Positions 13,323 through 29,560 of a stretch of 64,000 nucleotides of DNA are shown in pieces. The position numbers and the translations under genes are program-made. Within the stretch, counting starts at the first letter, position 1. Each line of letters opens with the position of its first letter. Origin of the DNA: an uncultured Methanobacteriaceae archaeon (GTDB lineage Archaea; Methanobacteriota; Methanobacteria; Methanobacteriales; Methanobacteriaceae); assembly GCA_902782945.1 (NCBI GenBank), contig CACZOU010000046.1, forward strand, positions 1-64,000. Reading direction: 5' to 3'. Under the pieces are notes generated by a model. The model had not been told where the DNA came from. It ran no database searches and worked only from the letters and a program-made list of their open reading frames with translations.

Positions 13323-16300
13323 TTACTCTTGACGCGCTGATTTTCTTGTAAATCCGGTAAAGAAGAATACTGCAATTAAAACAATTGCTAAAATGTATCC
13401 TAGAGATATTTCAGCTTGTGAAGATGCTGCTTGTCCTCCACTTTTTGAGGATACAGCATAAACTGCAGCAGTAGCACTTGTAGCTCCACTACTTGATGCT
13501 GAACTACTTGATGCTGAACTAGCTGAGGATACGGATCCTCCGTTAGCTCCTTGACCTACATCAGAATTACCTGATTCAGTATTATTTCCACTTCCAGAGC
13601 TTGAACCGGAATTAGATGAACCTTGACTATTTCCTGAACCATTATCAGTTCCATTAGCGTTACCATTTTGGCCATTACCTGAATTAGCACCATTATTGTC
13701 TGATGATCCATTTCCAGAATTTTGTCCATTATTGTTTCCACTATTTCCTGAATCTGATCCAGTACTAGATCCACTCATTTGACTTGCTGCATTACCATTG
13801 CTTGAACCAGCATAACTTGCAGCTCCGGCGTAAGCTCCTGATCCTGAAGATACTCCAGCGTCACCATATCCTTTGAAGCTGTCTCCTCCAACATTGGTTC
13901 CACCGTTTTCACCGCCAGTATCACTACCGGTTCCACTACCTGATCCTGCACCAGTTCCAGAATCACCGGTACCTAGTACAGTTCCAGTATTTGTTGCTGA
14001 GTAGTATTGTTGTGAATATCTTTCTAAACCTTTAACACCTAATGCAGATCCTCGTTTCAGTATCCATTCATGGAGATTTACATTACCACATGTGTGGTGA
14101 CAACATGCTACTCCCCATTTATTTGCGTTATCAACGTATTTTTGAATAAGGTCTTTCATTAATTTGTTATCAGTTGTTTTCCAATAGTTGTTCATAGCTA
14201 ATGTCATACCCCAACCCATCATTGATTGAAGGGCATAGGATTTATAGTTAGCATCACCTATTAAATATTCACTGTAAACTATAACTTTCACGGTTTTTGT
14301 GAATAATTCTTGGCTAATTGCACCTGTTGAGTTTCCACTTGTTGTTCTATGGATTGCTTTTCCGTTTTTGTCTTCCTCATATCCTTGTGTTGTGAATATT
14401 GTTTTTACTAAGTTTTCATAGTTTTGTGATAATTGATTCCATCCACCAACGGAGGAAGTCATTGCTTGTAACCATTGTGGATTTGTGATTGTTGTCATTA
14501 CTTCTTTACTTACTTCTTTGGAAATTGTGCTTGAAACTATATTGTTTCTGTTACGTATATCTATCAACATAGTGTTTGGAATTGCTCCATGTACATTAGC
14601 TGCATTCAGGAGTCCTCCAAACCAGTCGGTGTAATCATCTGAATCTATGTATCTCCATGTACTATCCATATCTTGCATTATCAGGTTAACTTTGGATAAT
14701 AGATATACAAAGAGGTCTCTTTGTCCTGGAATTACTACTATTTTTCCCTCAGAATTCACTGTCCATGCATTACATAATCTTGATTCGTATACACTTGCTT
14801 GTTCGTAAGCTACACCTTCAGTTGAATTTTGCCATGATGCAATGTTGTTAAGTAAATCTGATACACCAGTACCTTCTAATTTAGCTCCATTAAGACCAAA
14901 TAATCTATATGTGGAATTAAATTGGGCATAATGTTTTTTAACATAATTGTCTTCAATACTTTCATTTAGATTATTCACTTGGTTTACTGCATTGTATAAT
15001 AAGCTTAACCAGTATGGGTTATTGGATACAATAGTAGCAAAGATATCAATTCTTGGACGTTGATATATTTTACCATCAATTGTTATAGTAAGGTTTTGAA
15101 GTGGTATTACCTCAGTACCATTTACTTTTCCACTTTGATCCCATGTTGGTTTAACTCCTAGTAAATATAGATATTGAGCTAGACTAATTCCTTCTGTACG
15201 AAGTACTTCAGTACCCCATATTACTTCCCCAACTAATTCTGGGTATGTATCTTCTCCGAGGTCCTGCATGTATTGTGTTAGTATTTGATCTACTGATTTA
15301 ACAGCAGTGGACCATGCAGCTCTACTAGGCATTTTTGTAGTATCACTAGAATACATTGATCTACCTGTAGGTAATACATCAGATAATGCTGGGTCTCCAG
15401 ATAATCCTGGTTCTACATATCCACCACTAAGAGCGTTCATAATAGATGCCCATTCTTTGTTGTCACGAACTTCATTTATGAAAGTTACTATTTGTAAGAG
15501 ATCTTTATAGAAACTACTGTTTTCGTTTTGGTTTTGTTCTCTAGCCATTAATTTAGCATTTCTAACAGTTGCATTATCAACTAATCTCATTACAATACTT
15601 TCAAGTGTTGAAGTAATAGCTGCCTGTTGTTCTGTAAAATCAACGGATTTTATTTTATCATAATAATTTCCATCAATATTATAGTAAATATTCATTATAT
15701 CTTGCAGTATACTTGTTCGTGATGATGCAATGCTAGTTATTCCTTGAACCATTTCAGTATCATTCCAGACATATCCCAATGTATGTACACCATAATTTAT
15801 AGTATCTCCACTTAAACTCTCTATAGTTTGATGTATTGTGGATAGCCAGTCTTCGAAAGCTTCATCACTAGTTGTGTAATTATACATTTTTTCTAAGTAT
15901 TCATCAAAGGTCATGTTACCTTTTAAGGTATAATTGTAGTAACCGTTCATTGATTTATTAAGACTTTGGGATAGGTTAAGTATTGCACTTTTACATATAC
16001 CCATTATTTCTTGGTCACCAATTTCCTTTACTTCATTGTATAGTGTGATGTTTTCACTCATTCTTAAGAAGTCAGGTGATTTAAAACCACCAGTGGATGT
16101 AAGGTTTAATATTAATTCTTTATAATATTCAACGTTACTTAAATCACCAGTTTTTTTGTTACTATCGTAATTTGATATAGCATCACTTAAGTCTGCATAT
16201 TCATCATATAGTTTTGAAGCTGTTGTTACTGGTGTCATATGTGTAATAACTTGTGCAAAACTTCTTTCTTTTGCAGTCATACCTTCTCCAGGGTTTGATA

Positions 16301-18887
16301 CAATATAAGGATATATGATTGGAGCTTCAGTTAATTGGAATGGCCAGTCTGATGCTTGTAATCCTAATGTACGCCCTGGTAACCATTCAAGGGTTCCGTG
16401 TGTACCCATACTTATCATTGCATCTACACTATTACCTGTTTTTCCTTTATAATATTTATATAAATATTTATAGAATGCAACATATTGTTGTGGTGGTGCT
16501 AATGCATCACTATGATAATCGGTTACGGAATCCCATCCTCTTGCTGGTTGTATACTTATAAAGATATTACCAAAGTAAATACCAGGTATAACTAGGTAAC
16601 TGTTGTTGTATATCATTGAACCATTACCTAATCCTTTTCCCCAACATGCAACTAACTGGTTTTGAAGATTTTCAGGTAATTCATTATACATTTTTTGGAA
16701 ATCACTTTTACTTATCAACTGATGATTTTTAGTTAGGTTTGCATAATGCTCTTTAACATATGTATTAAGGAGACCTTTTGCCCAGTTTCCTTTGTTACCT
16801 ATGTCAATGAGTTGTGTAGTTAATTCCTCAGTAGTTGGAATTTCACTTTTTTTCATTCCAATATTATAACCTTCATCAGCCATTTTAACTAGTAAATCAT
16901 GGACACTGGTATATACATCAAGATATGATGCACCTATGTTTGCTCTACCTGGTGGGTAGTCATATAGAATTATAGCTATTTTTTTATCATAGTTCTTTTT
17001 CTCTTTAAGTTGTGCCCATTTAAGTACTAATTGAACGTGTTTTTTCACACCTTCCTTGATAATTACCGTTGTTCCATTATCTTCAACGTATGAAATTGGC
17101 AGTGCACCAATAACTCCTTCAAACTGAGGAATTGTTACCTTATATGTCCATTCAGATTGTGGTCCATATTCACTTTTATAACTATATTTACTAATACCAC
17201 TTAAAGCATTTAGAATTGTTATGTTTGTGTGTTTATAAGTTTCTACAGTTATGTTTGTTGACATTTGTGAATATGATGTGGACCATGAATATAATGAACT
17301 GGCAGCACTAATTCCACGGGATAAACCGCTTTTATTGGTTACTGCAATGTCTAGTAATTCTGTCATGGTTGGACTTGTTGTTGCATATTGGTATAGACAA
17401 AATGCTGCTCTACCGTTTCTTTCATATTCTTTTATTAGAGCTTCTACTTCTGGTGTTGTTTGGTAGTAGCTTATAATTGCAATGAAAGGTCCTTTGTATT
17501 TAACGTGTTTATCGTACCATTGTTCAAAGTTGTGTAGTATGTCTACTGGATTTTGATGTTCTAGAATCCATGGATTGTAGTAGTTTGTCATCCAGTTTAA
17601 ACTTCCAGATCCATCATCATCATATCCAGGATCCATTTGTATCCATTGATTTATTTGTTTACTTGTTGGAATTGGTACAGACATTTTGTATCCCGGATAA
17701 TAAATACCCCATTGTGGTCCAGCTAATACTGGTGTGTTTCCATTTAGGGTTGGATTTACTTTACTTTCTCCTAGTAAGTAGAATATATAGTTTAACATGT
17801 TTTTCATATTGGTTTTAATGACAGTTTCATCTTTAATAGGTTCTGCTTGCCAGTATGAACCAATATATGTGTTTTCAATGGAGTATGGACTGTTACCTAG
17901 GAATCCCCAGCCTAACTGGTTAACTAATGAACCATATATACCAAAGGTATATGCAACCTTATTGTTTTGTGATGCTGGTGATTCTTTGATGAGGTTAGTC
18001 TCTACTCCGAATCCTTCTCCTAAAGCATACATATCTACTAGTATAAAGTTAGTATGGCTTAACATCCATTCAGCAGATACATCATATGAACTATTTAAAT
18101 TATAACCTTCAAGGAAATATACTCTATCTGATAGTTTTCTCAAGGCTTCGAATTTATTATATTGTCCATCGCTCGAGCTTCCTGAGTATGATATAATTGC
18201 TATATCTGGTATGAAAGTATAATTTAAACTTTCAGTAGTATTTATGATATGAACTTCTTCTTCACCTGCTTTATATGTTCCATATTCGAATTTTACTATG
18301 TAGTAATTTGGAGTTAATCCTGTTATTACATAATTACCAGATGAATCGGATTTCGTTTTTGTAACTATTTTACTTGTATTTTCATTGTATACAGTAATAA
18401 CTGCTCCTCCTACTCCAATAGCGTCTTTTTCCTCTCCGACGTAAGTCATTGAGGTTTTATTATATACACAGGTAACTTTTCCATTCAAACTATAAGTTTT
18501 TGCTTGTTTGATATATTTAGGTCCTGTTTTAAACGATGATTTCTCAGAGGCTACAGTTTTTATTTCTGATATTGCATGTTCCTCTTTTGATGTTATAGTT
18601 GCTGTATCTTTTTTCGTTGTTTTACTTGTTGTATCTGTTGATTTTTTCTTCGATGTTGTAGTAGTATCTATTTTCTTATTGGTTTTTGTTGTTGTTAATG
18701 ATACTTCATTAACATGTGTTTCACTTGTTAGTTCAGATATTGTTGATTCTGTATTAATTGTATTTATCTCATTCATTGTTGGTGTTGCTGCTGTACTATT
18801 AACATCTACTGGATTAGTTGCAGTTACTGTAGTACAAATTAAGAGTACGAAAAGTATCATACATAATGAAAAGATCTTATTTTTCAT
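13323..18887 (-). CDS. Exported, membrane-anchored CobN-like (cobaltochelatase large subunit family) surface protein
   Basis: About 1854 residues. A signal peptide (KNKIFSLCMILFVLLICTTV) is followed by a Thr/Ser/Lys-rich stretch to about residue 125, then a CnaB/carboxypeptidase-regulatory-like domain (VGGAVITVYN, SDSSGNYVITGLTP) and a full CobN/BchH-type chelatase region from about 230 to 1600. Visible CobN blocks: IAIILYDYPPGRANIG, ISMGTHGTLEWLPG near 830, PYIVSNPGEGMTAKERS, GEVIWGTEVLRTEGIS, RPRIDIFATIVSNNP, RLFGLNGAKLEGTGV. Then comes a 200-residue Gly/Ser/Asn linker and a C-terminal helix (GYILAIVLIAVFFFTGF) with a basic tail. Cytoplasmic CobN inserts cobalt into corrin using ATP and CobS/CobT; outside the membrane that is unlikely, so the role is open. 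AAGGAG precedes the ATG; a GTG at 18890 is also possible. Confidence 0.88.
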   Translation of the reverse strand: MKNKIFSLCMILFVLLICTTVTATNPVDVNSTAATPTMNEINTINTESTISELTSETHVNEVSLTTTKTNKKIDTTTTSKKKSTDTTSKTTKKDTATITSKEEHAISEIKTVASEKSSFKTGPKYIKQAKTYSLNGKVTCVYNKTSMTYVGEEKDAIGVGGAVITVYNENTSKIVTKTKSDSSGNYVITGLTPNYYIVKFEYGTYKAGEEEVHIINTTESLNYTFIPDIAIISYSGSSSDGQYNKFEALRKLSDRVYFLEGYNLNSSYDVSAEWMLSHTNFILVDMYALGEGFGVETNLIKESPASQNNKVAYTFGIYGSLVNQLGWGFLGNSPYSIENTYIGSYWQAEPIKDETVIKTNMKNMLNYIFYLLGESKVNPTLNGNTPVLAGPQWGIYYPGYKMSVPIPTSKQINQWIQMDPGYDDDGSGSLNWMTNYYNPWILEHQNPVDILHNFEQWYDKHVKYKGPFIAIISYYQTTPEVEALIKEYERNGRAAFCLYQYATTSPTMTELLDIAVTNKSGLSRGISAASSLYSWSTSYSQMSTNITVETYKHTNITILNALSGISKYSYKSEYGPQSEWTYKVTIPQFEGVIGALPISYVEDNGTTVIIKEGVKKHVQLVLKWAQLKEKKNYDKKIAIILYDYPPGRANIGASYLDVYTSVHDLLVKMADEGYNIGMKKSEIPTTEELTTQLIDIGNKGNWAKGLLNTYVKEHYANLTKNHQLISKSDFQKMYNELPENLQNQLVACWGKGLGNGSMIYNNSYLVIPGIYFGNIFISIQPARGWDSVTDYHSDALAPPQQYVAFYKYLYKYYKGKTGNSVDAMISMGTHGTLEWLPGRTLGLQASDWPFQLTEAPIIYPYIVSNPGEGMTAKERSFAQVITHMTPVTTASKLYDEYADLSDAISNYDSNKKTGDLSNVEYYKELILNLTSTGGFKSPDFLRMSENITLYNEVKEIGDQEIMGICKSAILNLSQSLNKSMNGYYNYTLKGNMTFDEYLEKMYNYTTSDEAFEDWLSTIHQTIESLSGDTINYGVHTLGYVWNDTEMVQGITSIASSRTSILQDIMNIYYNIDGNYYDKIKSVDFTEQQAAITSTLESIVMRLVDNATVRNAKLMAREQNQNENSSFYKDLLQIVTFINEVRDNKEWASIMNALSGGYVEPGLSGDPALSDVLPTGRSMYSSDTTKMPSRAAWSTAVKSVDQILTQYMQDLGEDTYPELVGEVIWGTEVLRTEGISLAQYLYLLGVKPTWDQSGKVNGTEVIPLQNLTITIDGKIYQRPRIDIFATIVSNNPYWLSLLYNAVNQVNNLNESIEDNYVKKHYAQFNSTYRLFGLNGAKLEGTGVSDLLNNIASWQNSTEGVAYEQASVYESRLCNAWTVNSEGKIVVIPGQRDLFVYLLSKVNLIMQDMDSTWRYIDSDDYTDWFGGLLNAANVHGAIPNTMLIDIRNRNNIVSSTISKEVSKEVMTTITNPQWLQAMTSSVGGWNQLSQNYENLVKTIFTTQGYEEDKNGKAIHRTTSGNSTGAISQELFTKTVKVIVYSEYLIGDANYKSYALQSMMGWGMTLAMNNYWKTTDNKLMKDLIQKYVDNANKWGVACCHHTCGNVNLHEWILKRGSALGVKGLERYSQQYYSATNTGTVLGTGDSGTGAGSGSGTGSDTGGENGGTNVGGDSFKGYGDAGVSSGSGAYAGAASYAGSSNGNAASQMSGSSTGSDSGNSGNNNGQNSGNGSSDNNGANSGNGQNGNANGTDNGSGNSQGSSNSGSSSGSGNNTESGNSDVGQGANGGSVSSASSASSSSASSSGATSATAAVYAVSSKSGGQAASSQAEISLGYILAIVLIAVFFFTGFTRKSARQE

Positions 18888-19122
18888 CACATATAACTCC
18901 TTTTTAGTGTATTCAACAATTTTTATTTATCTTAACTATTCAAGTATAAATGAATAAGAATACACTAATACTATTTTAGTTCAGTTTATTTAATATATTT
19001 ATGTATTATTAATAAAAATTCAAGTAAATTAGTCTTAATTTTTCTATTAAAGTTTAAATATTTTGAATTTAATTATAAAATGAGTAATTTAAAGAAAAAA
19101 AATAAAAAAGTTAAAAAACGTT

Positions 19123-21675
19123 TTAGGTTTTTATTGTTAAGACTGGTGCAGTATATTTACCGGAATTAACGTGATTATTACCAGAGTATACAACTGTTAC
19201 ATTATATAGACCATCATCCCAGAAGATATTTACATATGTACTTAGCATAGCAGTTCCATTAGTAATTGACTGAACAGTAGTTTCTGTCATTGTTTCTGGA
19301 TCAACATTACTTATAGTTCCACCATTAACTTTAAATACATATTTTCCATTAGCAACTGGCAATTTTGTTACACTTGTAGTGACATGTGCTACAAGAGTTA
19401 TGAATTCTCCAGATTTAGCAGTTAACTTTTCAATAGAAATAACTGGATCCTCTTTAAGAATAACTAATTTAGATGTAGTAGTCATACTATAATATCTATT
19501 ATTATCTCCTAGTACTATAGTGAAATTATTATCACCTGCACGTAATCCTGATGGTAAAGTAATATTTGTAAGTAGAAGACCATTAACAATATTCATATGA
19601 GCAATAGTTTTTCCATTTACTTTCACAGCTGCTTTTGTAGTACCTTTTAACTGGTTACCGTTTTGGTCAAGAATAGTTTCATTAAGTAATATATTTTGAC
19701 CAGCATATGCTGTTATTTCTTTTTGTATGAAAGAAACATTAACTTTTTGTATAGTCATATTAGTAGTATATTCTATTCTATTATATGAATCGTTACCATA
19801 TACTGCTGTTACCCTATATGTTTTACCACCAAAACCACTTAATGTGTAATTTAAAGTAGCTACACCATTAGTCATTTTAATTTTTATAGGATTACCATTA
19901 TTATCTTTTAAAGTTACACCATTAAACTTAAAGACTACTGTACCATTCAGTGGGACTGATGTTTTAGCATCAGTTGCTGTTGCTACAAGTGTTATATTAG
20001 TATTTGTTTGTGGATTTGTAGGAACGACTACATTTATTATAGCATCGTTTTTGAGTACTGGTTTAATATTGTCTGATATAGTAATATTGGTTAAATTTCC
20101 TGTAATCGTTACAGCTTCATCACCAGTAACATCATTGGATAATAATGTATTATTTAGTATAGTTACATTATTAGTTCCATTAATTGATACTGCTTTGGAA
20201 TTATTACCTACATCTATTGTGTAGACTGTGTTATTAATGATTTTTGCATTATCTGAGTTTTGTTGAATTTGGATTCCAGTATTTCCAGGTCTTACTTCTT
20301 CAACAATCTCATTAATATGTATATTACTGTTTCCAGTAGTGTTCACGTAGTTGCCTGTGATTGTAGCATTGGTAGAGTGTGCAAGTTCAATACCCATCGT
20401 ATAATTACCGACACCAGTAATATTATTATTACTTATAGTAGAATTTTGTGTTTGATAGATTTCCATACTGTATACGATTGGAGCATTTAATTTAATATTA
20501 TTATCGCTTACGTTCATATTTATTGTCGGACCTACACCACCCATGGTAGATGTGATTATACCAAATGCTAAAGCTTCATTATCTGCTGTGTAAATGGTTG
20601 TATTATAACAACGTCCTGTAACATTGTTTCCTGTGATTGTACAATTTGTAGCATAATTACCAATTTGTACTCCATCAACGTATCTGTCACCAGTCATATG
20701 TAGATTGTTATTGGTGATGTTGATGTTACTTATAGTATCTAATGCATTTATTGCATATAAAAATCTTGCTCCACTTACGGTTACTGTGTTATTATTGATG
20801 GTTATATTATCACCGTTTTTGATTTCAATACCATCTATAGTACCGTAATATGTTCCATCACATTCGTCAGCTTTTCCAACGTCAGCAATATTATTCTCTA
20901 TCAGAATATTATTACCTCCCCAATTAAATATACCGAATGTATTAGCTAAGCCTGCACGATCACCATTTACCCAATCAATATCCATTGCATGACCTCTTAC
21001 AGTCACATTATTGTTTGAAATAGTTACATTGTCAACGTTATTATATATTCCCTGTGTCACATAATCAACGTCTGAATCGCCGTTGTCATCATTGTTAGTT
21101 ATGTTTATGGTGTTATGGGTAATTTTAGCGCCAATTGCTTCATTATGAATAGCATCCTGATAACCTGTTGTAACAATTTTTAAATTCGTCACTGTTGAAT
21201 TTATTGCATCTTCAGTAAGGAATACTTGACCATTGTTAATTGTTGCATCAGAACCTGTAAGAACTAATCCTTGTTTATCAAGATAGAATGTTTTGTTGTA
21301 AAATGAACCTGTTAGTATAATAGTACTATTTGCTGTTATTGTATTTTTTGTACCTGAATCTCCACTGAAATAACGGTTATAATTTCCGTCGGTTACTGTG
21401 ATATTTTCTGCTGTTTTCAATGATTTTTTTGAATCATGTTTTATAGCAGAAGTTGTATTTATTTTCTTAGATGTAGTTGGTTGGGATTTTACTGCATAAT
21501 CAACGTTATTATTTTCAATTGTTTGTATGTCCTGTGTGCTGGTAGTAATAGTATTAGTATCTTGGGCAGTTGTTGTTACTGATTGGTCTGTACTGTTAGC
21601 TGCTGATACTGCACTTATTCCTATAAATAATAGGATTAATGTTGCTATTAGTAAAAACACTTTCTTATTATTCAT
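19123..21675 (-). CDS. Adhesin-like surface protein: beta-helix then Ig-like repeats
   Basis: 850 residues. The signal peptide (NNKKVFLLIATLILLFIGI then SAVSAA) is followed by a Thr/Gln/Asn-rich linker and the conserved beta-helix entry YNRYFSGDSGTKNT near 105. Residues 110-560 form a right-handed beta-helix with NITISNNNVT and TITGNYVNTT coils. Residues 570-850 are three Ig-like repeats (VVFKFNGVTL, AAVKVNGKTI, YVFKVNGGTI). There is no C-terminal membrane helix. The ATG follows GGGGTGA. It shares the minus strand with its neighbours; the 232-bp gap to the CobN-like gene suggests separate promoters. Confidence 0.88.
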   Translation of the reverse strand: MNNKKVFLLIATLILLFIGISAVSAANSTDQSVTTTAQDTNTITTSTQDIQTIENNNVDYAVKSQPTTSKKINTTSAIKHDSKKSLKTAENITVTDGNYNRYFSGDSGTKNTITANSTIILTGSFYNKTFYLDKQGLVLTGSDATINNGQVFLTEDAINSTVTNLKIVTTGYQDAIHNEAIGAKITHNTINITNNDDNGDSDVDYVTQGIYNNVDNVTISNNNVTVRGHAMDIDWVNGDRAGLANTFGIFNWGGNNILIENNIADVGKADECDGTYYGTIDGIEIKNGDNITINNNTVTVSGARFLYAINALDTISNINITNNNLHMTGDRYVDGVQIGNYATNCTITGNNVTGRCYNTTIYTADNEALAFGIITSTMGGVGPTINMNVSDNNIKLNAPIVYSMEIYQTQNSTISNNNITGVGNYTMGIELAHSTNATITGNYVNTTGNSNIHINEIVEEVRPGNTGIQIQQNSDNAKIINNTVYTIDVGNNSKAVSINGTNNVTILNNTLLSNDVTGDEAVTITGNLTNITISDNIKPVLKNDAIINVVVPTNPQTNTNITLVATATDAKTSVPLNGTVVFKFNGVTLKDNNGNPIKIKMTNGVATLNYTLSGFGGKTYRVTAVYGNDSYNRIEYTTNMTIQKVNVSFIQKEITAYAGQNILLNETILDQNGNQLKGTTKAAVKVNGKTIAHMNIVNGLLLTNITLPSGLRAGDNNFTIVLGDNNRYYSMTTTSKLVILKEDPVISIEKLTAKSGEFITLVAHVTTSVTKLPVANGKYVFKVNGGTISNVDPETMTETTVQSITNGTAMLSTYVNIFWDDGLYNVTVVYSGNNHVNSGKYTAPVLTIKT

Positions 21676-21984
21676 TATTCACCCCTTCTATTTTTAATTA
21701 TATAATCATACTTTAAAAATTAAACAATGTAATTTTAATTAAGTTTAATATTAATTGATTATATGGTTTATTATATAAACTTTATGAATAATATAATTTT
21801 TCATTATAAAATTAGAATTAGAGCTAATAATAAACTTTAATAGATTTTTTGGGAGTAATAATGTGAAAAATTAGTATTTTTTGAAAATTAGGAAAAAAAG
21901 GACTGGTAATTTCATAAAAAAAATTAGGGTGAAAGTGTATATTTAATTTTTTTATAGTTAACACTTCCACTCTTTTATTTTTTC
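21676..21984. other. Intergenic, AT-rich, 309 bp
   Basis: Holds the ribosome site and AT-rich promoter region of the 850-residue adhesin (TATA-like stretch near 21765-21780) and the terminator of the 1858-residue adhesin. No ORF or RNA gene was recognised. Confidence 0.6.
21916..21973 (-). terminator. Intrinsic-like terminator of the 1858-residue adhesin gene
   Basis: A 13-bp stem (21926-21938 with 21961-21973; one mismatch and one G-T) lies 12 nt past the stop codon in the minus direction, followed by T8 (A8 at 21916-21923 on the plus strand). Confidence 0.55.
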
Positions 21985-24900
21985 CTAGTATACTTCTTCA
22001 TGTCCATTCTTTGTTGGATTATTTTTTATTGTGTTATGATTTATTGTTGTTGTAGCATGTTTCATGTCGAAGATTGCTCCTCCACTGTTTGCAGTATTAC
22101 TTGTTATTTTGTTACCTGTGATTGTAGTGTTTGTTGCACGGGTGTATATTGCCCCACCATAGCTTGCATTGTTACTTGTTAGATTGTTATTGGTTATTTT
22201 CGTGTTTACTGCGTTATAGTTGTTTATTGCTCCACCATAACTTTTTGCATCGTTATTCTTGATAGTGTTTTCGGTTATAGTATTGTTGGTTCCTATGTTG
22301 TAGATTGCTCCTCCACTTGATGTTGCTTTATTGTTGTATATGTTATTGGATTGTACTGTTATATTTGTTCCTCTAAGATATATTGCACCATATTGTGCTT
22401 GGTTGTGGTGTATTCTGTTACCTGTTATTATTATATATTTTGCATTCCAGTTACTGATTGCTCCACCTAATGAAGTTGCAGTGTTATATTGCATAATGTT
22501 TGATTTTATGTTTATGTTTGTTCCTAAATTATTTATTACTGCTCCAGTTTTTGCTTTGTTTTGTGTGAAATTGTTGTTTGTTATATTGTTATTTTGACCT
22601 ATTACAAATACTGCTCCACCACTTACTATTGCAGTGTTACTTGTCATGTTGTTTTTATCGAGTTTTAATGTTGATCCTCTGTAGTATATTGATCCACCAT
22701 AGTTAGCTTTGTTACCGTTGAATTTATTATCAATTATTACTGTGTTTTTGGTATCCCAGTTATTTATTGCTCCACCAAGAGTTTTAGCTGTGTTATTTGT
22801 GAATTGGTTGTTTGTTACTTTGGTGTTTGCTCCTAGGTTGTATATTGCTCCTGAGGAAATAGTTGCATTGTTTTTAGTGAATTGGTTATTTGTTATTATG
22901 GTGTTGTTTCCTCTGTTGTATATTGCTCCTCCATATGAAGCTGTGTTGTTTTGGAATACATTGCCTGTTATTAAAGCATTGTTTGCATTATAGTTGCTTA
23001 TTGCTCCACCATTACTTCCTTTATTGTTTATGAATGTGTTTCCACTTATTGTTGTCTTTGGTGCTCTGTTTATGATAGGTGTGTTTTTAAATCCTGTGAA
23101 TGTTATATCTTCTATGGATATTAATCCATTTTGTATGTTAAAGTTGCTAATTTTCTTATTGTTTCCATCAAATACTACATTGTCGTAGCCTATTATTTTA
23201 AGATTTACGTTGGTGTTAAATGTAACAGTTTTATTTATTTTGTATACTCCGTTTAGGATGTAAAGTGTTGAATTGTTGTATTTACTATTTTTTATTGTGT
23301 CAAATGCGTATGTGTAGTTCCATGGTGTTTCTGGTGTTCTTCCATCATTTTTGCTTGTACCATTAGTTGCTACATAATATACTTGTCCGGTATAGATTAC
23401 AAGACCATTTTTGTATGTAGAGGTACTGCTATTTAGCTGGTTATTACCATAGTATTTTATTGTTATATTGTTTTTTCCTAGTAATGTGCTTGGAGCTGTA
23501 AATTTGAATCTTGCTGTTCCATTTTTGTTTACAGTTGCACTGATCACTGTTCCATTTGTATATTTTAGGTCTTTACCATTTATCATTAAAGTTACTCTAC
23601 CACTATTTCCATTGAATGTTTTTGCTTTATCTGATATTATTATGTTTAATGTTGTTGGTTCGCCAACTCTGACATGGGTTGATGTATAACTTATTGTACT
23701 TGCTGCTTTATTTACTGTGATGTTATTATGTGCTGTGGATTTTGTTAAGAGATTAGTTCCATCAAATGTTACATTTAACGGATATTTTCCTGCAACTAAT
23801 GTTGATGGTATTGTGTATTTATATGTTGCTACTCCATTGGATATTTTTGCAGTTCCAACTAGTGAATTGTTAACATATATTGTAACAGTTCCAGAAGTTA
23901 TTGCTTTTCCATTTGCAGTAAATCTAGATGTAATTGTTACCTGATTACCAATTATTCCAGTTACACTGCTTACAGTTGCTACACTTTTAGTTTGAACATA
24001 TAATTTAGCAGTACCATTAGATGCAAAGTAATCATCATTTCCACTGTATACAACGGTTATATTATATGCCTTACTTTCTGCATTTGCTGGTATTCTATAT
24101 GTGTATGATGCTTTTCCTAAAGTTACATTAGTAGTTCCTAATGTTTTTCCATCTAATATAAATGTAGCATTTCCAGTTAATTGAGCGTCATAATTATCTT
24201 TTATTTCTGCATTGATTGTAACTGTTGATCCAGGTAATCCTGGTACATTATTTACATTAACTATACTGCTTGTTTTAGTCTTGTTTAAATTTAATGAATT
24301 TGTATTAGTTGCATTTTGGAAATTTGTTCCTGATACTGATGCAATTATTGTGTATATTGTAGGTTTTAATAGATTTGTATCATTAAATCTAATAGTTGCT
24401 ACACCATTTGTTACATTTGATGAACCTATTATAGTAGTACCTATTCTAAATACAACTGTTAAATTTTTTAAATCATCAGTTGTTGAATTGATATTTGCTG
24501 TGAAAGTAACTGGATGGCCTACTGTGCCTTTTACATGTGTTACTGTGATATTTGTGAAGTATAGGAAATTATGAGATACATTGTTTGATTTATGATCATT
24601 TAATACTGCATTATCTCCAATATATTGTGATGACCTTATTGAATTTTCAGTTATTGTGTTATTAACAGTATCTGAGGTTAAGTTCACTGCATATGGACTT
24701 GCATTATTATCTATTGTGTTATTAATTACTGTGTTACTGAAACTTCTTGTCATAAACATTATTCCATTTTTACCGAAAGGAATAGCATCACTGTGTAATG
24801 CACTGGATGTATTTCCATAATCAGCACCTCTCATAGTAATATTATTACCGATAATTCTATTAAATGATGATTCATATCCAGCAACTCCGTATGGATTTGT

Positions 24901-27561
24901 TGCTTCTCCATAGAATGTATTATTGATTATTTTGTTATTGTCAGTATCAAATAATTCAATAGTGTATAATGATGCTGCACTTGCATTCATTTTGTTATTT
25001 ATGAATGTTGTGTTAAGACAATGTTCTAATGTTAATCCATAAGCATAATCTCCTCTGACTGTGGAGTTATGTAATGCATTTACGTTGAATGTATTGTTTT
25101 CTACTATTGTGTTAACACTATTTAATCCTGCTATAAATCCAGTAGCAAAGTATCCACCATTAACTACTACATTATTATTTCTAAATGTGTTATTAGTTGC
25201 ATTTAATGAACTAATTGAACTTCCCCATGGTGCTCCTAAGACTCCCATACCATATTCATATGGTCCATAACTATTTACTGTTATTTTATTGTTTGTTATA
25301 AAGTTATAATTACTATCATAATAAACATCTATACCTACAACACTGTTTTTACAAGTGTCCACCGGGAATTGGTACTTATCAAATTGTGATGTTACATTTA
25401 CATCGTTTTTGTTAATTGTGTTGTATGAGGAATATAATAAAATAATTCCATAATTATGTAATACCTCTTGAACAGCGCCGATTCTATCATCAAACATGAT
25501 TTCAGAATCATATTCTATAGGTATATTACTTTGGTTTAGTCTTACTATATTATTTGTTATATTGTTAAGATCTGATGCATATACAAATATTGCGTAGTTT
25601 ACGTAATCACCAGATGTGAATATTGTATTATGTGTTACAGTGTTACCACTTGATGAATATAAAAATATTCCAAAACTTTCCCATTTATCGTAGTTATTGA
25701 TTTTTACGTTTGTGATGTTACAGTTATTTACTTCTACTACTTCAATAGCATGTACATTGATAACTGATGAGTCATGTCTGTTGTTAATAATGGTTACGTT
25801 AGTTATTGAGGATGCGTGAGCATCTCCTGTGAATAATACTGTACCATTATAGATTGTACAATTTTGTCCTATTATATGTACTTTTATTGGGAATGTAAAG
25901 TTTTTGTTTGTGAATGTACCTTGTAGGATGAGTGTATCATTTTTTAATACTTTATTGGTATTAACAGTATATTCATCAGTAAAGTATGTGTAATAGTTGT
26001 CTTCTGTAATTATATATGTTTTATTTGAATCTGGTAAGTTTTCAGATGTACCTGATGATGGAGGTAGGTAAGCTAAGTCTAATCCTTGTCCAGAGGTACA
26101 ATTTAATACATTTGATTCTGCTACATATACATGTGCATCTTCTTCATTTCTTGCACCTGCTTCTGAGAAGTCTATGGCATATTCATCATATGATTGAATT
26201 CTGTTGTTTGTAACATTTACATAATTTATTTTTTTACTACTTGATTGTTTTTTGAATACTATACCAATCTTTCCACTAGTAATATTATTATTACTAATTG
26301 TGATATTTTTGTATGCACCTTTAGCGTATATTCCGTTTCCTAATGTAGACCATAAAGTATTATTTGTTATTATAGCTTTACCTGCCATAATTCTAATACA
26401 TGATCCACTATTTGAAGTTACGGTATTATTGTTAAGGAGTACTCCTTCACCACCAATAGTGATACCTACTGTTGTTGTGTTCACATGAACTATGTTATTA
26501 GAAACAATAGCTCCTTCACATGCATAGATACCTTCTGCTGTAGCATTTACTTCATTTCCTATGATATAGTTATTTGTGAAATCCTGAGTAGATATTCCTC
26601 TATATCCTTCTTTCACATAGTTATTACGTATTGTGTTCTCAGTACCCATTATCTGAATAGTATAACTCCAAGAGGTATCTCCACCTGTAACATAGTTTCC
26701 AGTTACATTATTATAATCACAGTAACCTCCCTGGAATAGTCCTGATCCATATACACTGAAATATATACCGTTTGCTTGGTCACTTACAACTGTGTTATTG
26801 TCAATGTTATTGTAGTAACATAATCCAAATGCTGCTGCTGTATGGGTACGATTCATATCTTCACGACAGGATGTCTGGAAGTAATTGTCATAAACACGAC
26901 TATTATTCATTTGATCTGCCGCTAATGCAAATGCAAATGGACCCCATACGTGTATATGGTTATTTGTGATTGTAATGTTCTTTGTTTTGTTAACATAGAT
27001 TCCACTACCATAGTAGTTGTTGTTAGTAATTGTTAAATTCTTGATTACTGCACCTGTTGAGTTTAAACCTTCAACGTTTACGGTACAGTTGTATAATTTA
27101 GCATTTTTGTTTGTACTGGTAAGTGTAATGTTTGATTTATCTATACTGAAATTCATGTTTGTGAATGTACCTTGTAAGTCTATTGTGTCACCTGCCTGTA
27201 CTAAGTTTGTACTTTTTGTTTTGTTTTGTGTTTTGTTGTATTTGAAGTATAAGTTGTAATTATCGCTAGTTATTGTATAAGATGATTTTTTCAACGTTTT
27301 ATTAGTTGATTTTTTCGTTATTTTATTATTACTTGTTTTTATATTCTCTTTTTTATTTACGGATGTTTTAATATTATGAGTATTACTAATAGTGTTATTA
27401 CTATTACTAGTACTTTGTATTGTATATGTGCTTTGACTTGTATCTTTTTGAATTGTATGACTTGTTCCATTATTATCTGAAACATCTGCCGCCGATACAC
27501 AGCCTAAGCCAACCATAAATAAAATCATTGTAACTAACAAGAATTTACTCATAGTTTTCAT
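21985..27561 (-). CDS. Giant adhesin-like surface protein: helix - helix - Ig-like - helix
   Basis: 1858 residues. A signal peptide (KFLLVTMILFMVGLGCVSAA) and Asn/Lys/Thr linker lead to a beta-helix opened by YNLYFKYNKTQNKT near residue 100. A second beta-helix opens with YYTYFTDEYTVNTN near 525. About residues 1010-1420 are Ig-like repeats (FILDGKTLGTTNVTLG, VTIYVNNSLVG). A third, very regular helix starts after YYVATNGTSKNDGRTPETP near 1400, with about 13 coils of the NNxAxxGGAIYN type. The third domain runs to the C-terminus with no anchor. The ATG follows GGTGA. A typical Methanobacteriales surface protein; binding partner unknown. Confidence 0.88.
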   Translation of the reverse strand: MKTMSKFLLVTMILFMVGLGCVSAADVSDNNGTSHTIQKDTSQSTYTIQSTSNSNNTISNTHNIKTSVNKKENIKTSNNKITKKSTNKTLKKSSYTITSDNYNLYFKYNKTQNKTKSTNLVQAGDTIDLQGTFTNMNFSIDKSNITLTSTNKNAKLYNCTVNVEGLNSTGAVIKNLTITNNNYYGSGIYVNKTKNITITNNHIHVWGPFAFALAADQMNNSRVYDNYFQTSCREDMNRTHTAAAFGLCYYNNIDNNTVVSDQANGIYFSVYGSGLFQGGYCDYNNVTGNYVTGGDTSWSYTIQIMGTENTIRNNYVKEGYRGISTQDFTNNYIIGNEVNATAEGIYACEGAIVSNNIVHVNTTTVGITIGGEGVLLNNNTVTSNSGSCIRIMAGKAIITNNTLWSTLGNGIYAKGAYKNITISNNNITSGKIGIVFKKQSSSKKINYVNVTNNRIQSYDEYAIDFSEAGARNEEDAHVYVAESNVLNCTSGQGLDLAYLPPSSGTSENLPDSNKTYIITEDNYYTYFTDEYTVNTNKVLKNDTLILQGTFTNKNFTFPIKVHIIGQNCTIYNGTVLFTGDAHASSITNVTIINNRHDSSVINVHAIEVVEVNNCNITNVKINNYDKWESFGIFLYSSSGNTVTHNTIFTSGDYVNYAIFVYASDLNNITNNIVRLNQSNIPIEYDSEIMFDDRIGAVQEVLHNYGIILLYSSYNTINKNDVNVTSQFDKYQFPVDTCKNSVVGIDVYYDSNYNFITNNKITVNSYGPYEYGMGVLGAPWGSSISSLNATNNTFRNNNVVVNGGYFATGFIAGLNSVNTIVENNTFNVNALHNSTVRGDYAYGLTLEHCLNTTFINNKMNASAASLYTIELFDTDNNKIINNTFYGEATNPYGVAGYESSFNRIIGNNITMRGADYGNTSSALHSDAIPFGKNGIMFMTRSFSNTVINNTIDNNASPYAVNLTSDTVNNTITENSIRSSQYIGDNAVLNDHKSNNVSHNFLYFTNITVTHVKGTVGHPVTFTANINSTTDDLKNLTVVFRIGTTIIGSSNVTNGVATIRFNDTNLLKPTIYTIIASVSGTNFQNATNTNSLNLNKTKTSSIVNVNNVPGLPGSTVTINAEIKDNYDAQLTGNATFILDGKTLGTTNVTLGKASYTYRIPANAESKAYNITVVYSGNDDYFASNGTAKLYVQTKSVATVSSVTGIIGNQVTITSRFTANGKAITSGTVTIYVNNSLVGTAKISNGVATYKYTIPSTLVAGKYPLNVTFDGTNLLTKSTAHNNITVNKAASTISYTSTHVRVGEPTTLNIIISDKAKTFNGNSGRVTLMINGKDLKYTNGTVISATVNKNGTARFKFTAPSTLLGKNNITIKYYGNNQLNSSTSTYKNGLVIYTGQVYYVATNGTSKNDGRTPETPWNYTYAFDTIKNSKYNNSTLYILNGVYKINKTVTFNTNVNLKIIGYDNVVFDGNNKKISNFNIQNGLISIEDITFTGFKNTPIINRAPKTTISGNTFINNKGSNGGAISNYNANNALITGNVFQNNTASYGGAIYNRGNNTIITNNQFTKNNATISSGAIYNLGANTKVTNNQFTNNTAKTLGGAINNWDTKNTVIIDNKFNGNKANYGGSIYYRGSTLKLDKNNMTSNTAIVSGGAVFVIGQNNNITNNNFTQNKAKTGAVINNLGTNINIKSNIMQYNTATSLGGAISNWNAKYIIITGNRIHHNQAQYGAIYLRGTNITVQSNNIYNNKATSSGGAIYNIGTNNTITENTIKNNDAKSYGGAINNYNAVNTKITNNNLTSNNASYGGAIYTRATNTTITGNKITSNTANSGGAIFDMKHATTTINHNTIKNNPTKNGHEEVY
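22070..23030 (-). repeat. Coding tandem repeat, about 75-83 bp period
   Basis: About 13 copies of ATTGCTCCACC or one-to-three-base variants recur every 75-83 bp (near 22074, 22152, 22228, 22311, 22384, 22466, 22540, 22612, 22692, 22770, 22846, 22924 and 23000). Each encodes the GGAIYN-like turn of one beta-helix coil. The conserved core could support slippage or recombination within or between adhesin genes. Confidence 0.75.
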
Positions 27562-27801
27562 TTTTTCACCGTTTTTTTATTCATAATTGTCATAAATATA
27601 AAAATTAATGATTATTTATGATAATATTATATTTCTTTTACACGAATTAATTAATTTTTCTATATAATTATTAAAATTAAATTTAATATAATCTAATAAT
27701 CAAAATTAATTAAAATAAATAATATTAATAAAAATTAGGATATGTAATTTAAAAAAAAATAGTAAATAATTCTAAAGTATAAAAGTTAATTCTCACAAAA
27801 T

Positions 27802-27831
27802 AAAAAGGTGGTGAATATAGGATTTATCCTA
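27802..27831 (-). terminator. Terminator-like hairpin after the ExbD-like gene
   Basis: A perfect 6-bp inverted repeat with a 2-nt loop (27818-27831) starts 5 nt past the stop codon, followed in the minus direction by T5 (A5 at 27802-27806). It would end the DUF2162 - ExbB - ExbD transcript. Confidence 0.4.
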
Positions 27832-27835
27832 CTTT

Positions 27836-28186
27836 TTATGAACTCACCATAACCATTTTACCAGTACTAGGATCTTGATAAACTTTTCCCATTTCCTGGT
27901 ATCCTGAACCTGATTTAGTTACATTTTCAGGCGTTTCATTTAATTGTTGTGTTTGATTATTATCTAATTCGGTAGTTTGAGCCTGCTGCTGTTGCATTGA
28001 CTGTTGTTGCTGTTGCATTGACTGCTGTTGAGACATTGCTTGGTTCATATTTTGAGCTCCTGTAGACATCACAGCAAATATTAGAAAACCCACAGCTAAC
28101 ACTAACATGATATCAGTCATGTTTACTGCTGATGACATAGGATCTAAATCTTCACCAGAGCGTAGTTTTCCTCTTCTTAATGACAT
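27836..28186 (-). CDS. DUF2149 protein, ExbD/TolR-like stator subunit
   Basis: 116 residues. One membrane helix at about 23-41 (NMTDIMLVLAVGFLIFAVM) carries Asp25 at its start, closely resembling the ExbD/TolR helix in which this Asp carries protons. A basic N-terminus (SLRRGKLRSGEDLD) should be cytoplasmic. Outside the membrane is a Gln/Met-rich stretch (about 48-75) and a short tail (MGKVYQDPSTGKMVMVSS), not the folded domain of bacterial ExbD. The start codon shares one base with the stop of the ExbB-like gene (TAATG) with GAGGTGAT just upstream, so translation is probably coupled. Confidence 0.82.
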   Translation of the reverse strand: MSLRRGKLRSGEDLDPMSSAVNMTDIMLVLAVGFLIFAVMSTGAQNMNQAMSQQQSMQQQQQSMQQQQAQTTELDNNQTQQLNETPENVTKSGSGYQEMGKVYQDPSTGKMVMVSS

Positions 28187-28830
28187 TACATCACCTCAAG
28201 AATAGCTTCTCCGATATCATATAATGCTGTTAAATCCTCTTCGTACCATCTTCTACGAATTCTTGCAATAACGAAACATAATGTACCTGCAGCTAATCCT
28301 GCAGTAGTTGTGTTAAATGCTGTTGTTAAGTTAGTTGTTAATGTCATCATATCTCCAGCACCTAGAGCTGCTAGTCCTGGACCCATAGGTATAATAGTAC
28401 CTAGTAATCCACAACCTGAACCTACTTTAGCAACTATTTCATCTTTTTCTAATGTTTTCATTATTTTGAATTCTTGGTCTTCAATAAGATTTCTTGCTAA
28501 CACTTCTCGGGTTTCTTTATTATATTGTTCTTTATCAAGAGATGCTATTTCACATAACATTTTTTTATCTTTTTTGATTAGTCTTGTTTTATTAATAGTG
28601 TCGCATATCTCTTCTTGTGTATTACACTTTGCTATGTCTTTAATTATATTACTTCTTTCTTCTGCAGTTATTTTCTTACGTCCAGTATATTCTGCAATTA
28701 TAGCTCCTAATTCTATTATTGCAAATATTATAAATATTATAAGTAAGACTAATACTGGAAGTAACAGACTTTGTGCGACAACATTCAATATTCCTGTTAG
28801 AATATCTCCTCCAGGTATAGTACTGGCCAT
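28186..28830 (-). CDS. MotA/TolQ/ExbB proton-channel family protein
   Basis: 214 residues. A first membrane helix at about 20-45 (LLLPVLVLLIIFIIFAIIELGA) is followed by a cytoplasmic helical region and then the hallmark TolQ/ExbB block VGSGCGLLGTIIPMGPGLAALG, with a last helix in FNTTTAGLAAGTLCFVIARI. These proteins form the pentameric stator around an ExbD/TolR dimer and turn proton flow into mechanical work. GGAGG lies 6 nt before the ATG. It sits between DUF2162 (28 bp away) and DUF2149 (1-nt overlap) in one operon. The driven partner is unknown; TonB-like proteins are not expected in a single-membrane archaeon. Confidence 0.88.
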   Translation of the reverse strand: MASTIPGGDILTGILNVVAQSLLLPVLVLLIIFIIFAIIELGAIIAEYTGRKKITAEERSNIIKDIAKCNTQEEICDTINKTRLIKKDKKMLCEIASLDKEQYNKETREVLARNLIEDQEFKIMKTLEKDEIVAKVGSGCGLLGTIIPMGPGLAALGAGDMMTLTTNLTTAFNTTTAGLAAGTLCFVIARIRRRWYEEDLTALYDIGEAILEVM

Positions 28831-28858
28831 GTAATTCCTCCTATTTTCTTAGTTATTA

Positions 28859-29560
28859 TTAGAATTCTATTAAATCGCTTTTTCTTTTAGTATATATAAT
28901 GCCGAGTATTACTAATCCAATCACTGCAATTAGCATATAACCTATATCAGTTAATGATTGAATTTGTACTGCTGATCCTGATGTTAATGATGAAATATTA
29001 GGTAGTATTAATAAGCATAGACAGAAGTATAAACCAATAAAAATCATGAAATTTCCTAATACAATAGGATATGGTTTATTAATTTTTTTCACAATTTTAG
29101 TTGACAATGCATAGGTTATTCCCATCACAGCTACTAATGCAACTGAGGACAATAATCCTAGAGATACTGATGATACACCAGCCATTGGAGATACTAGTAA
29201 TATTGAAGTTAATATTGCACCAAAACAACATGGACATGGCGCAACTACTGCCATACATGTACTGCTTCCAACGTCTTTACCTGTTACTTTCCAGTCATAT
29301 ACAGTTTTAAATCCAGTTATAAGAATTACTGCTGCAATTACTGCGAAGATGTAACTGGTATAATTATATACAAAATTATATAGTTCTTTGGTGTATGGTT
29401 GTACTATGTATGATAGTACTACAAGTCCTACGAAGTACCCAACTAATATTAAGTATACATTTCTTTTTTTAATACCTGAAAATCCTAGAGCTAATCCTAT
29501 TTTCAAACCAAATATTAGAACTGCTGCTAATATTCCATATTGCCAGAATTGTTCTAGCAT
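28859..29560 (-). CDS. DUF2162 polytopic membrane protein
   Basis: 233 residues with about six hydrophobic helices (IAGL-type segments near 5-25, 36-53, 68-84, 104-128, 130-150, 165-188, 205-222). A Cys cluster lies in a membrane segment: Cys102, Cys109, Cys111 and Cys112 in TCMAVVAPCPCCFG. Families with this domain are annotated only as predicted transporters. It is the first gene of the operon with the ExbB- and ExbD-like genes; GGAGG lies 8 nt before the ATG. A role in moving a metal or thiol-linked substrate is a guess from the Cys cluster. Confidence 0.8.
   Translation of the reverse strand: MLEQFWQYGILAAVLIFGLKIGLALGFSGIKKRNVYLILVGYFVGLVVLSYIVQPYTKELYNFVYNYTSYIFAVIAAVILITGFKTVYDWKVTGKDVGSSTCMAVVAPCPCCFGAILTSILLVSPMAGVSSVSLGLLSSVALVAVMGITYALSTKIVKKINKPYPIVLGNFMIFIGLYFCLCLLILPNISSLTSGSAVQIQSLTDIGYMLIAVIGLVILGIIYTKRKSDLIEF

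Follow-up and report, generated by a model that had tools for sequence, protein, structure and literature searches.

Exported proteins with the fold of the CobN and ChlH chelatases (S) are encoded beside a predicted permease (T) and a pair of stator-like subunits (U and V) in many Methanobacteria, and by sequence comparison S, U and V are homologous to HmuS, HmuU and HmuV of Bacteroidota. We propose, at a probability of about 0.58, that these genes specify a module of HmuSTUV type, in which S, an ion-driven stator formed by U and V, and the permease T would together extract metal from a chelate at the cell surface. Both nickel and cobalt are needed by methanogens, and to our knowledge their acquisition from bound forms is poorly known. 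The linkage of S, U and V across Methanobacteria, together with a T of another family and with cobalt/nickel genes nearby in relatives, offers a testable case of extracellular chelatase-fold enzymes powered by a membrane stator, and proposes a job for HmuU and HmuV, so far uncharacterised, in Bacteroides of the human gut. A literature search found no paper describing an archaeal S-T-U-V module, nor any biochemical work on its proteins.

Organization of the locus

The window is a 64,000-nucleotide stretch of contig CACZOU010000046.1 from an uncultured Methanobacteriaceae archaeon, a gut-type methanogen that composition and relatives suggest to be a Methanosphaera. Its relevant features, in the direction of transcription, are:

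28859..29560, minus strand: T, DUF2162 predicted permease, 233 aa (PF09930, 3.4e-64)
28186..28830, minus strand: U, MotA/TolQ/ExbB-family stator subunit, 214 aa, HmuU homologue (PF01618, 1.5e-8)
27836..28186, minus strand: V, DUF2149/ExbD-like single-TM subunit, 116 aa, HmuV homologue (PF09919, 6.6e-19)
21985..27561, minus strand: adhesin-like surface protein, 1858 aa, with beta-helix, Big_3_5 and NosD-like regions (Pfam, synteny in the genus)
19123..21675, minus strand: second adhesin-like surface protein, 850 aa (synteny in the genus)
18905..18967, minus strand: inverted repeat TAGTGTATTC...GAATACACTA, just 5' of the ribosome-binding site of S (pattern search, folding)
13323..18890, minus strand: S, exported, C-terminally anchored CobN/ChlH/HmuS-fold chelatase homologue, 1855 aa (PF02514, 4.3e-181)

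All six genes lie on the minus strand where a first-pass annotation of the sequence had placed them. That annotation described a tight operon of DUF2162, ExbB-like and ExbD-like genes, with a CobN-like gene on the same strand beyond two adhesin genes, and coordinates and Pfam matches bear this out: 28 bp separate T from U, and U and V overlap by one nucleotide (28186). In the window, 232 bp lie between the second adhesin gene and the start of S, and 8.9 kb between V and S, a spacing that leaves a single transcript for S and T-U-V as only a candidate. The genome (92% complete) holds one PF02514 gene, S itself, and one gene each for DUF2162 and DUF2149. Other species of the genus have the same order, T-U-V, two adhesins, S, with full-length orthologues of both adhesins at the corresponding place (46-55% identity for the product of 21985-27561, about 37-51% for that of 19123-21675). 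The arrangement is therefore not a matter of chance.

U and V resemble an ion-driven stator

U scored above the cut-off of the MotA_ExbB model PF01618 (34.9 bits versus 22.9), whereas V fell below the gathering score of the ExbD model PF02472 (18.8 versus 25.4; E-value 0.0018) and was assigned instead to DUF2149, whose model, PF09919, is matched by both window V and Bacteroidota HmuV. Each subunit forms one alignable family spanning archaea and Bacteroidota. For U, the near-invariant signature GLMGTLIPMGP...AFxTT is common to the archaeal proteins and HmuU, its residues being mostly 94-100% conserved among 85 sequences. For V, the Asp25 that the first-pass annotation had singled out in the ExbD-like helix was found in NMTDIMLVLAVGF; of 82 DUF2149 homologues, 99% have Asp at the aligned position.

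Like ExbB/ExbD, TolQ/TolR and MotA/MotB, the U/V pair combines a MotA_ExbB domain and conserved helix threonines (GTLIP, AFxTT) with a transmembrane Asp in the partner subunit. It departs from them in that V is a DUF2149 protein below the ExbD cut-off, and a TonB, TolA or flagellar partner was not seen at the window locus. These features suggest that U and V form an ion-driven stator that would work on a partner protein. A single plasmid cluster of Trichlorobacter lovleyi (pGLOV01) carries S-T-U-V together with a canonical ExbB-ExbD-TonB set and two TonB-dependent receptors; since a separate canonical set is present, U and V are probably not the TonB energiser there.

S belongs to an exported clade distinct from CobN and ChlH

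By sequence, S matches HmuS and CobN over its full length, and its predicted fold (model pLDDT 84) matched 7c6o (4e-55), 9d26, which is HmuS (4e-52), and 4zhj (2e-48). It keeps the catalytic-type His in GTHG (motif start at residue 829), a CobN-like SDDY from residue 1417, and CCHHTC at residues 1596-1601. Hydrophobic segments lie at both termini, the calls of export and anchoring being hydropathy estimates rather than the output of a trained predictor. A C-terminal membrane segment is found in the exported S proteins, and a C-terminal Cys motif, present in 74 of 86, is absent from clearly cytosolic CobN and ChlH.

In the tree, a branch with 98/98 support splits the exported S proteins (HmuS, bacterial U/V-linked and archaeal) from CobN, ChlH and archaeal cytosolic forms. 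Within the exported group, window S is a deep branch that we call type B, and HmuS groups with type A. Type A genes are tightly linked to T-U-V; type B genes are often unlinked in other genera. S thus shares its full-length fold with cobaltochelatase CobN and magnesium chelatase ChlH/BchH, and SDDY with CobN, but differs from them in being exported and anchored, in its extra C-terminal Cys region, in its separate clade and in having neither cob neighbours nor an evident dedicated AAA+ partner.

Class I chelatases normally require AAA+ ATPases. A search of the window's 92%-complete genome with PF01078, which is unspecific, gave three weak matches, all recurring in relatives and none near S; by length and pattern they look like generic AAA+ proteins of Lon or MCM type. 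Indirectly, this points to an exported chelatase homologue with no plausible AAA+ partner in this genome, which makes the stator a reasonable source of energy. Cytosolic ATP is not directly usable by an extracellular chelatase, so ion flow through U and V would be a natural alternative.

Relationship to HmuSTUV of Bacteroidota

The closest known relative of the archaeal genes, which the first-pass annotation left out, is hmuSTUV, part of the hmuYRSTUV operon of Bacteroidota (order HmuY, HmuR, S, T, U, V), for which a structure of HmuS is available (PDB 9D26; PMC12583661, PMC13227078). HmuS has been shown experimentally to be a heme de-chelatase, removing metal rather than inserting it, with His538 essential (PMC12583661).

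The window locus likewise encodes an exported, membrane-anchored CobN-fold S and clear homologues of U (ExbB) and V (DUF2149), and many archaea retain the S-T-U-V order. The His aligned with His538, which in HmuS lies in HFG(T/A)HG, is kept in window S as SMGTHG, as is the C-terminal Cys motif. Other residues differ. His1209 and Glu1212 of HmuS (LSLDHxxEFMGG) are both Asp in window S, in IDSDDYTDWFGG, with Asp in place of His1209 as in CobN; the heme ligands Met79 and His254 correspond to a Tyr and an SWST stretch, in an N-terminal region where the alignment is weak. The Met-rich insertion of HmuS domain IV is missing: window S reaches at most 7 Met per 120 residues, versus 15-30 in three Bacteroidota HmuS proteins, although an HmuS-like protein of Aureibacter, also without the insert, has 9. 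The archaeal module further differs in lacking HmuY and HmuR, no outer membrane being expected; in a T that is DUF2162 rather than HmuT; in the cobalt/nickel-type neighbours of relatives of the window locus; and, in the window's genus, in the inserted adhesins.

Since Met79, His254, His1209 and the Met-rich insert define the published HmuS, we did not assign window S to HmuS proper; the working analogy stands. The 2025 HmuS paper describes the function of archaeal HmuS homologues as unclear and complete hmu operons as lacking in archaea (PMC12583661), and S-T-U-V as found here therefore appears to be a new archaeal form, probably a branch of the HmuSTUV-type kind.

S is linked to the stator genes beyond chance

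S, T, U and V are contiguous on one strand in many Methanobacteria, which represent several genera and orders (loci L079, L084, L088, L090, L093, L095, L101, L109, L201, L202 and others). Among single-contig genomes, a CobN homologue lay within 15 kb of the DUF2149 gene in 14 of 31 cases against 1.2 expected, the maximum in 2000 random placements being 6; the genomes are related, and the events are not independent. Bacterial examples come mostly from plasmid records, in which 10 of 11 DUF2149 matches stood beside an exported CobN-like gene in taxa far apart: Bacteroides, Prevotella, Aureibacter, Trichlorobacter, Runella, two Pseudoalteromonas (for one, strain NC201, the neighbour was inferred from a near-identical relative), Diaphorobacter, Comamonadaceae and Azospirillum. 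The eleventh match, in Paracoccus, was weak and without CobN. No U or V was seen with ordinary CobN genes in cob operons. The neighbourhood that the first-pass annotation gave for other methanogens is thus real, and it extends to bacteria. HisA-like, SNZ, TFIIS and CLC channel genes, conserved downstream in other genera, were dropped as partners and regarded as housekeeping.

The pairing is not exclusive. For 19 of 50 DUF2149 genes (26 genomes), both a CobN homologue within 35 kb and CbiM within 8 kb were missing, and U-V pairs and some T-U-V sets had no S nearby, some of them in genomes without a detected CobN, which in drafts may reflect incompleteness. The first-pass interpretation, with the stator energising S and DUF2162 moving the product, therefore gains from the co-neighbourhood and from an apparently dedicated DUF2162 partner (see below), but the outcome that it named as refuting, stator genes regularly lacking the exported CobN family or standing beside an unrelated conserved partner, is in part observed: as U-V also occurs without S, the stator is best seen as a shared module with S as one of its partners. 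At five loci (L156, L158, L160, L161, L165), ExbB-DUF2149 directly follows an exported, C-terminally anchored protein of about 700 aa, with CobN undetected; the one such protein scanned, from L161, had no Pfam match.

T is a candidate membrane partner of S

The AF2 model of T (pLDDT 80) has six to seven helices with an APCPCC motif inside the membrane. Foldseek returned no significant match among solved folds; a weak, low-ranking resemblance to metal transporters was given no weight. Across loci, the DUF2162 alignment shows APCPCC(F) kept in T of nearly all S-bearing genomes, whereas it becomes APCPCY or APSPCC or is lost in several genomes without detected CobN and in most FmdE/CbiM-linked T. 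The exceptions, T of L094 and L103, retain APCPCC with CobN undetected. This pattern supports DUF2162 as a probable dedicated membrane partner of S, and the pairing of APCPCC with an exofacial CCxxxC in S suggests a hand-over of metal or thiol. Homology of DUF2162 to HmuT was ruled out (profile-profile probability 4%), and the domain scan gave no DUF2162 match in HmuT. Our literature search found no paper on DUF2162.

Gene neighbors suggest cobalt or nickel as the metal

Four species of the window's genus have an additional T-U-V set, located after genes for an exported FmdE-domain protein and a CbiM-type cobalt/nickel transporter. Elsewhere these genes stand next to S: one locus (L177) runs FmdE, CbiM, S, S, T, U, with V following in the overlapping L098; another (L178) has CbiM and then S; and in L088 an FmdE-domain gene precedes S-T-U-V. 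Linkage of CbiM to V among the single-contig genomes showed a modest excess (4 of 31 versus 0.7 expected). CbiM-type genes thus share a cluster with the module in relatives; the CbiMNQO/NikMNQO ECF importers to which they belong are ATP-driven and absent from the window, whereas the S-T-U-V module has no ATPase.

The exported FmdE-domain surface protein (about 860-1025 aa) itself forms a conserved cluster beside DUF2162-ExbB-DUF2149 or ExbB-DUF2149, in the window's genus (L167, L168, L169, L170) and elsewhere in the family (L173-L176, L190, L094), and is frequently accompanied by a CbiM-type gene and by small exported proteins. Among bacteria, Azospirillum brasilense (L143) has CobN-ExbB-DUF2149 next to NikR and to a TonB-dependent receptor of siderophore type, and Runella slithyformis (L139) has it inside a hyp hydrogenase-maturation cluster; both sets are candidate nickel uptake systems.

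Because FmdE/CbiM, NikR and hyp genes neighbor the module in relatives, the metal handled in methanogens is most likely cobalt or nickel and not the iron of heme. The window's genome (92% complete) yielded no FmdE-domain gene and three CbiM matches, none on the window contig, so for the window itself cobalt or nickel is inferred from these relatives.

Proposed mechanism and competing explanations

We envisage S outside the membrane, binding a tetrapyrrole, or a chelate of similar type, that carries a metal. Proton or sodium flow through U and V would perform mechanical work on S, opening it or releasing its product, and would replace the AAA+ ATPase of cytosolic chelatases. The freed metal would pass to T for uptake, where the intramembrane CPCC may have the exofacial CCxxxC of S as its partner. 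Counted in favor of this module was the CobN-like SDDY of S, as cobalt/nickel context; counted against it were the U-V and T-U-V sets lacking S, the 8.9 kb between window S and V, the type B branch, the modest size of the CbiM excess, the missing FmdE-domain gene of this genome and a DUF2162 that is not HmuT-like. A wider version, an extracellular de-chelation engine run by the ion-motive force, in which the U-V stator drives interchangeable surface metal-extraction proteins (S, the exported FmdE-domain protein and others) in methanogens and diverse bacteria, with cobalt or nickel captured in methanogens from tetrapyrroles or other chelates outside the cell, is tentative and less likely than not.

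The stator could instead be a general one for adhesins or other surface proteins, its nearness to S being secondary. The 19 of 50 V genes with neither S nor CbiM nearby fit such a role, as do the two adhesins conserved between V and S in the genus and the U-V pairs that follow anchored proteins of about 700 aa or beta-helix proteins in genomes without detected CobN. We nevertheless consider it unlikely, as S-V proximity is far above chance, bacterial loci keep the S-U-V link without such an annotated adhesin, and the DUF2162 motif varies with whether S is present. Uptake of heme iron precisely in the manner of Bacteroidota, with S an archaeal HmuS that de-chelates heme for import of the iron, seems to us quite unlikely as well. 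S, U and V are of the same families as the Hmu proteins, S matches the HmuS fold (9d26, 4e-52) and shares its C-terminal Cys motif, and a gut habitat makes heme plausible; against this stand the missing Met79, His254, His1209 and Met-rich insert, a T other than HmuT, the cobalt/nickel-type genes linked in archaea, and a survey that lists no heme-b proteins but KatG for Methanobacteriales (PMC8351635).

That T is a DsbD/CcdA-like transmembrane thiol redox conduit, feeding the Cys motif of S with electrons so that metal is released reductively, and not a metal permease, strikes us as very improbable. It would account for the tracking of S by APCPCC, for the exofacial CCxxxC and for the reductant that HmuS activity needs (NADH in vitro, PMC12583661), and the T-position gene of Runella weakly matches DsbD_2; but that gene also matches NicO, equally below cut-off, as would suit a metal permease, T has no fold match, the second conserved Cys that DsbD/CcdA need in another helix was not found in T, and metal binding explains the same cysteines. 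Least credible is a biosynthetic role for S, as a cobaltochelatase or nickel chelatase of the B12 or F430 pathway whose export is incidental. S carries a CobN annotation, and Methanothermobacter CobN-like proteins have been suggested as B12 or nickel chelatases (PMC3087415). S nonetheless scores far below the CobN equivalog cut-offs (TIGR02257, 388 versus 822; NF004645, 399 versus 1619) and that of BchH, falls outside the CobN/ChlH clade, has a hydrophobic N-terminus and a C-terminal anchor, and has no evident dedicated ChlI/D-like partner in the genome; moreover, the B12 and F430 steps are served in methanogens by CbiX/CfbA-type chelatases (PMC3087415, PMC11301274).

An inverted repeat in the leader of S

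No operator or promoter element shared by the T and S promoters was seen by eye in the genus, and between 13 and 30 kb only two weak Rfam matches appeared, both below the gathering score. Under the pattern searched, the inverted repeat upstream of S has no second copy in the genome; it folds with z = -2.4. Several species of the window's genus have related arms in their leaders, and the repeat is possibly an operator or a leader hairpin.
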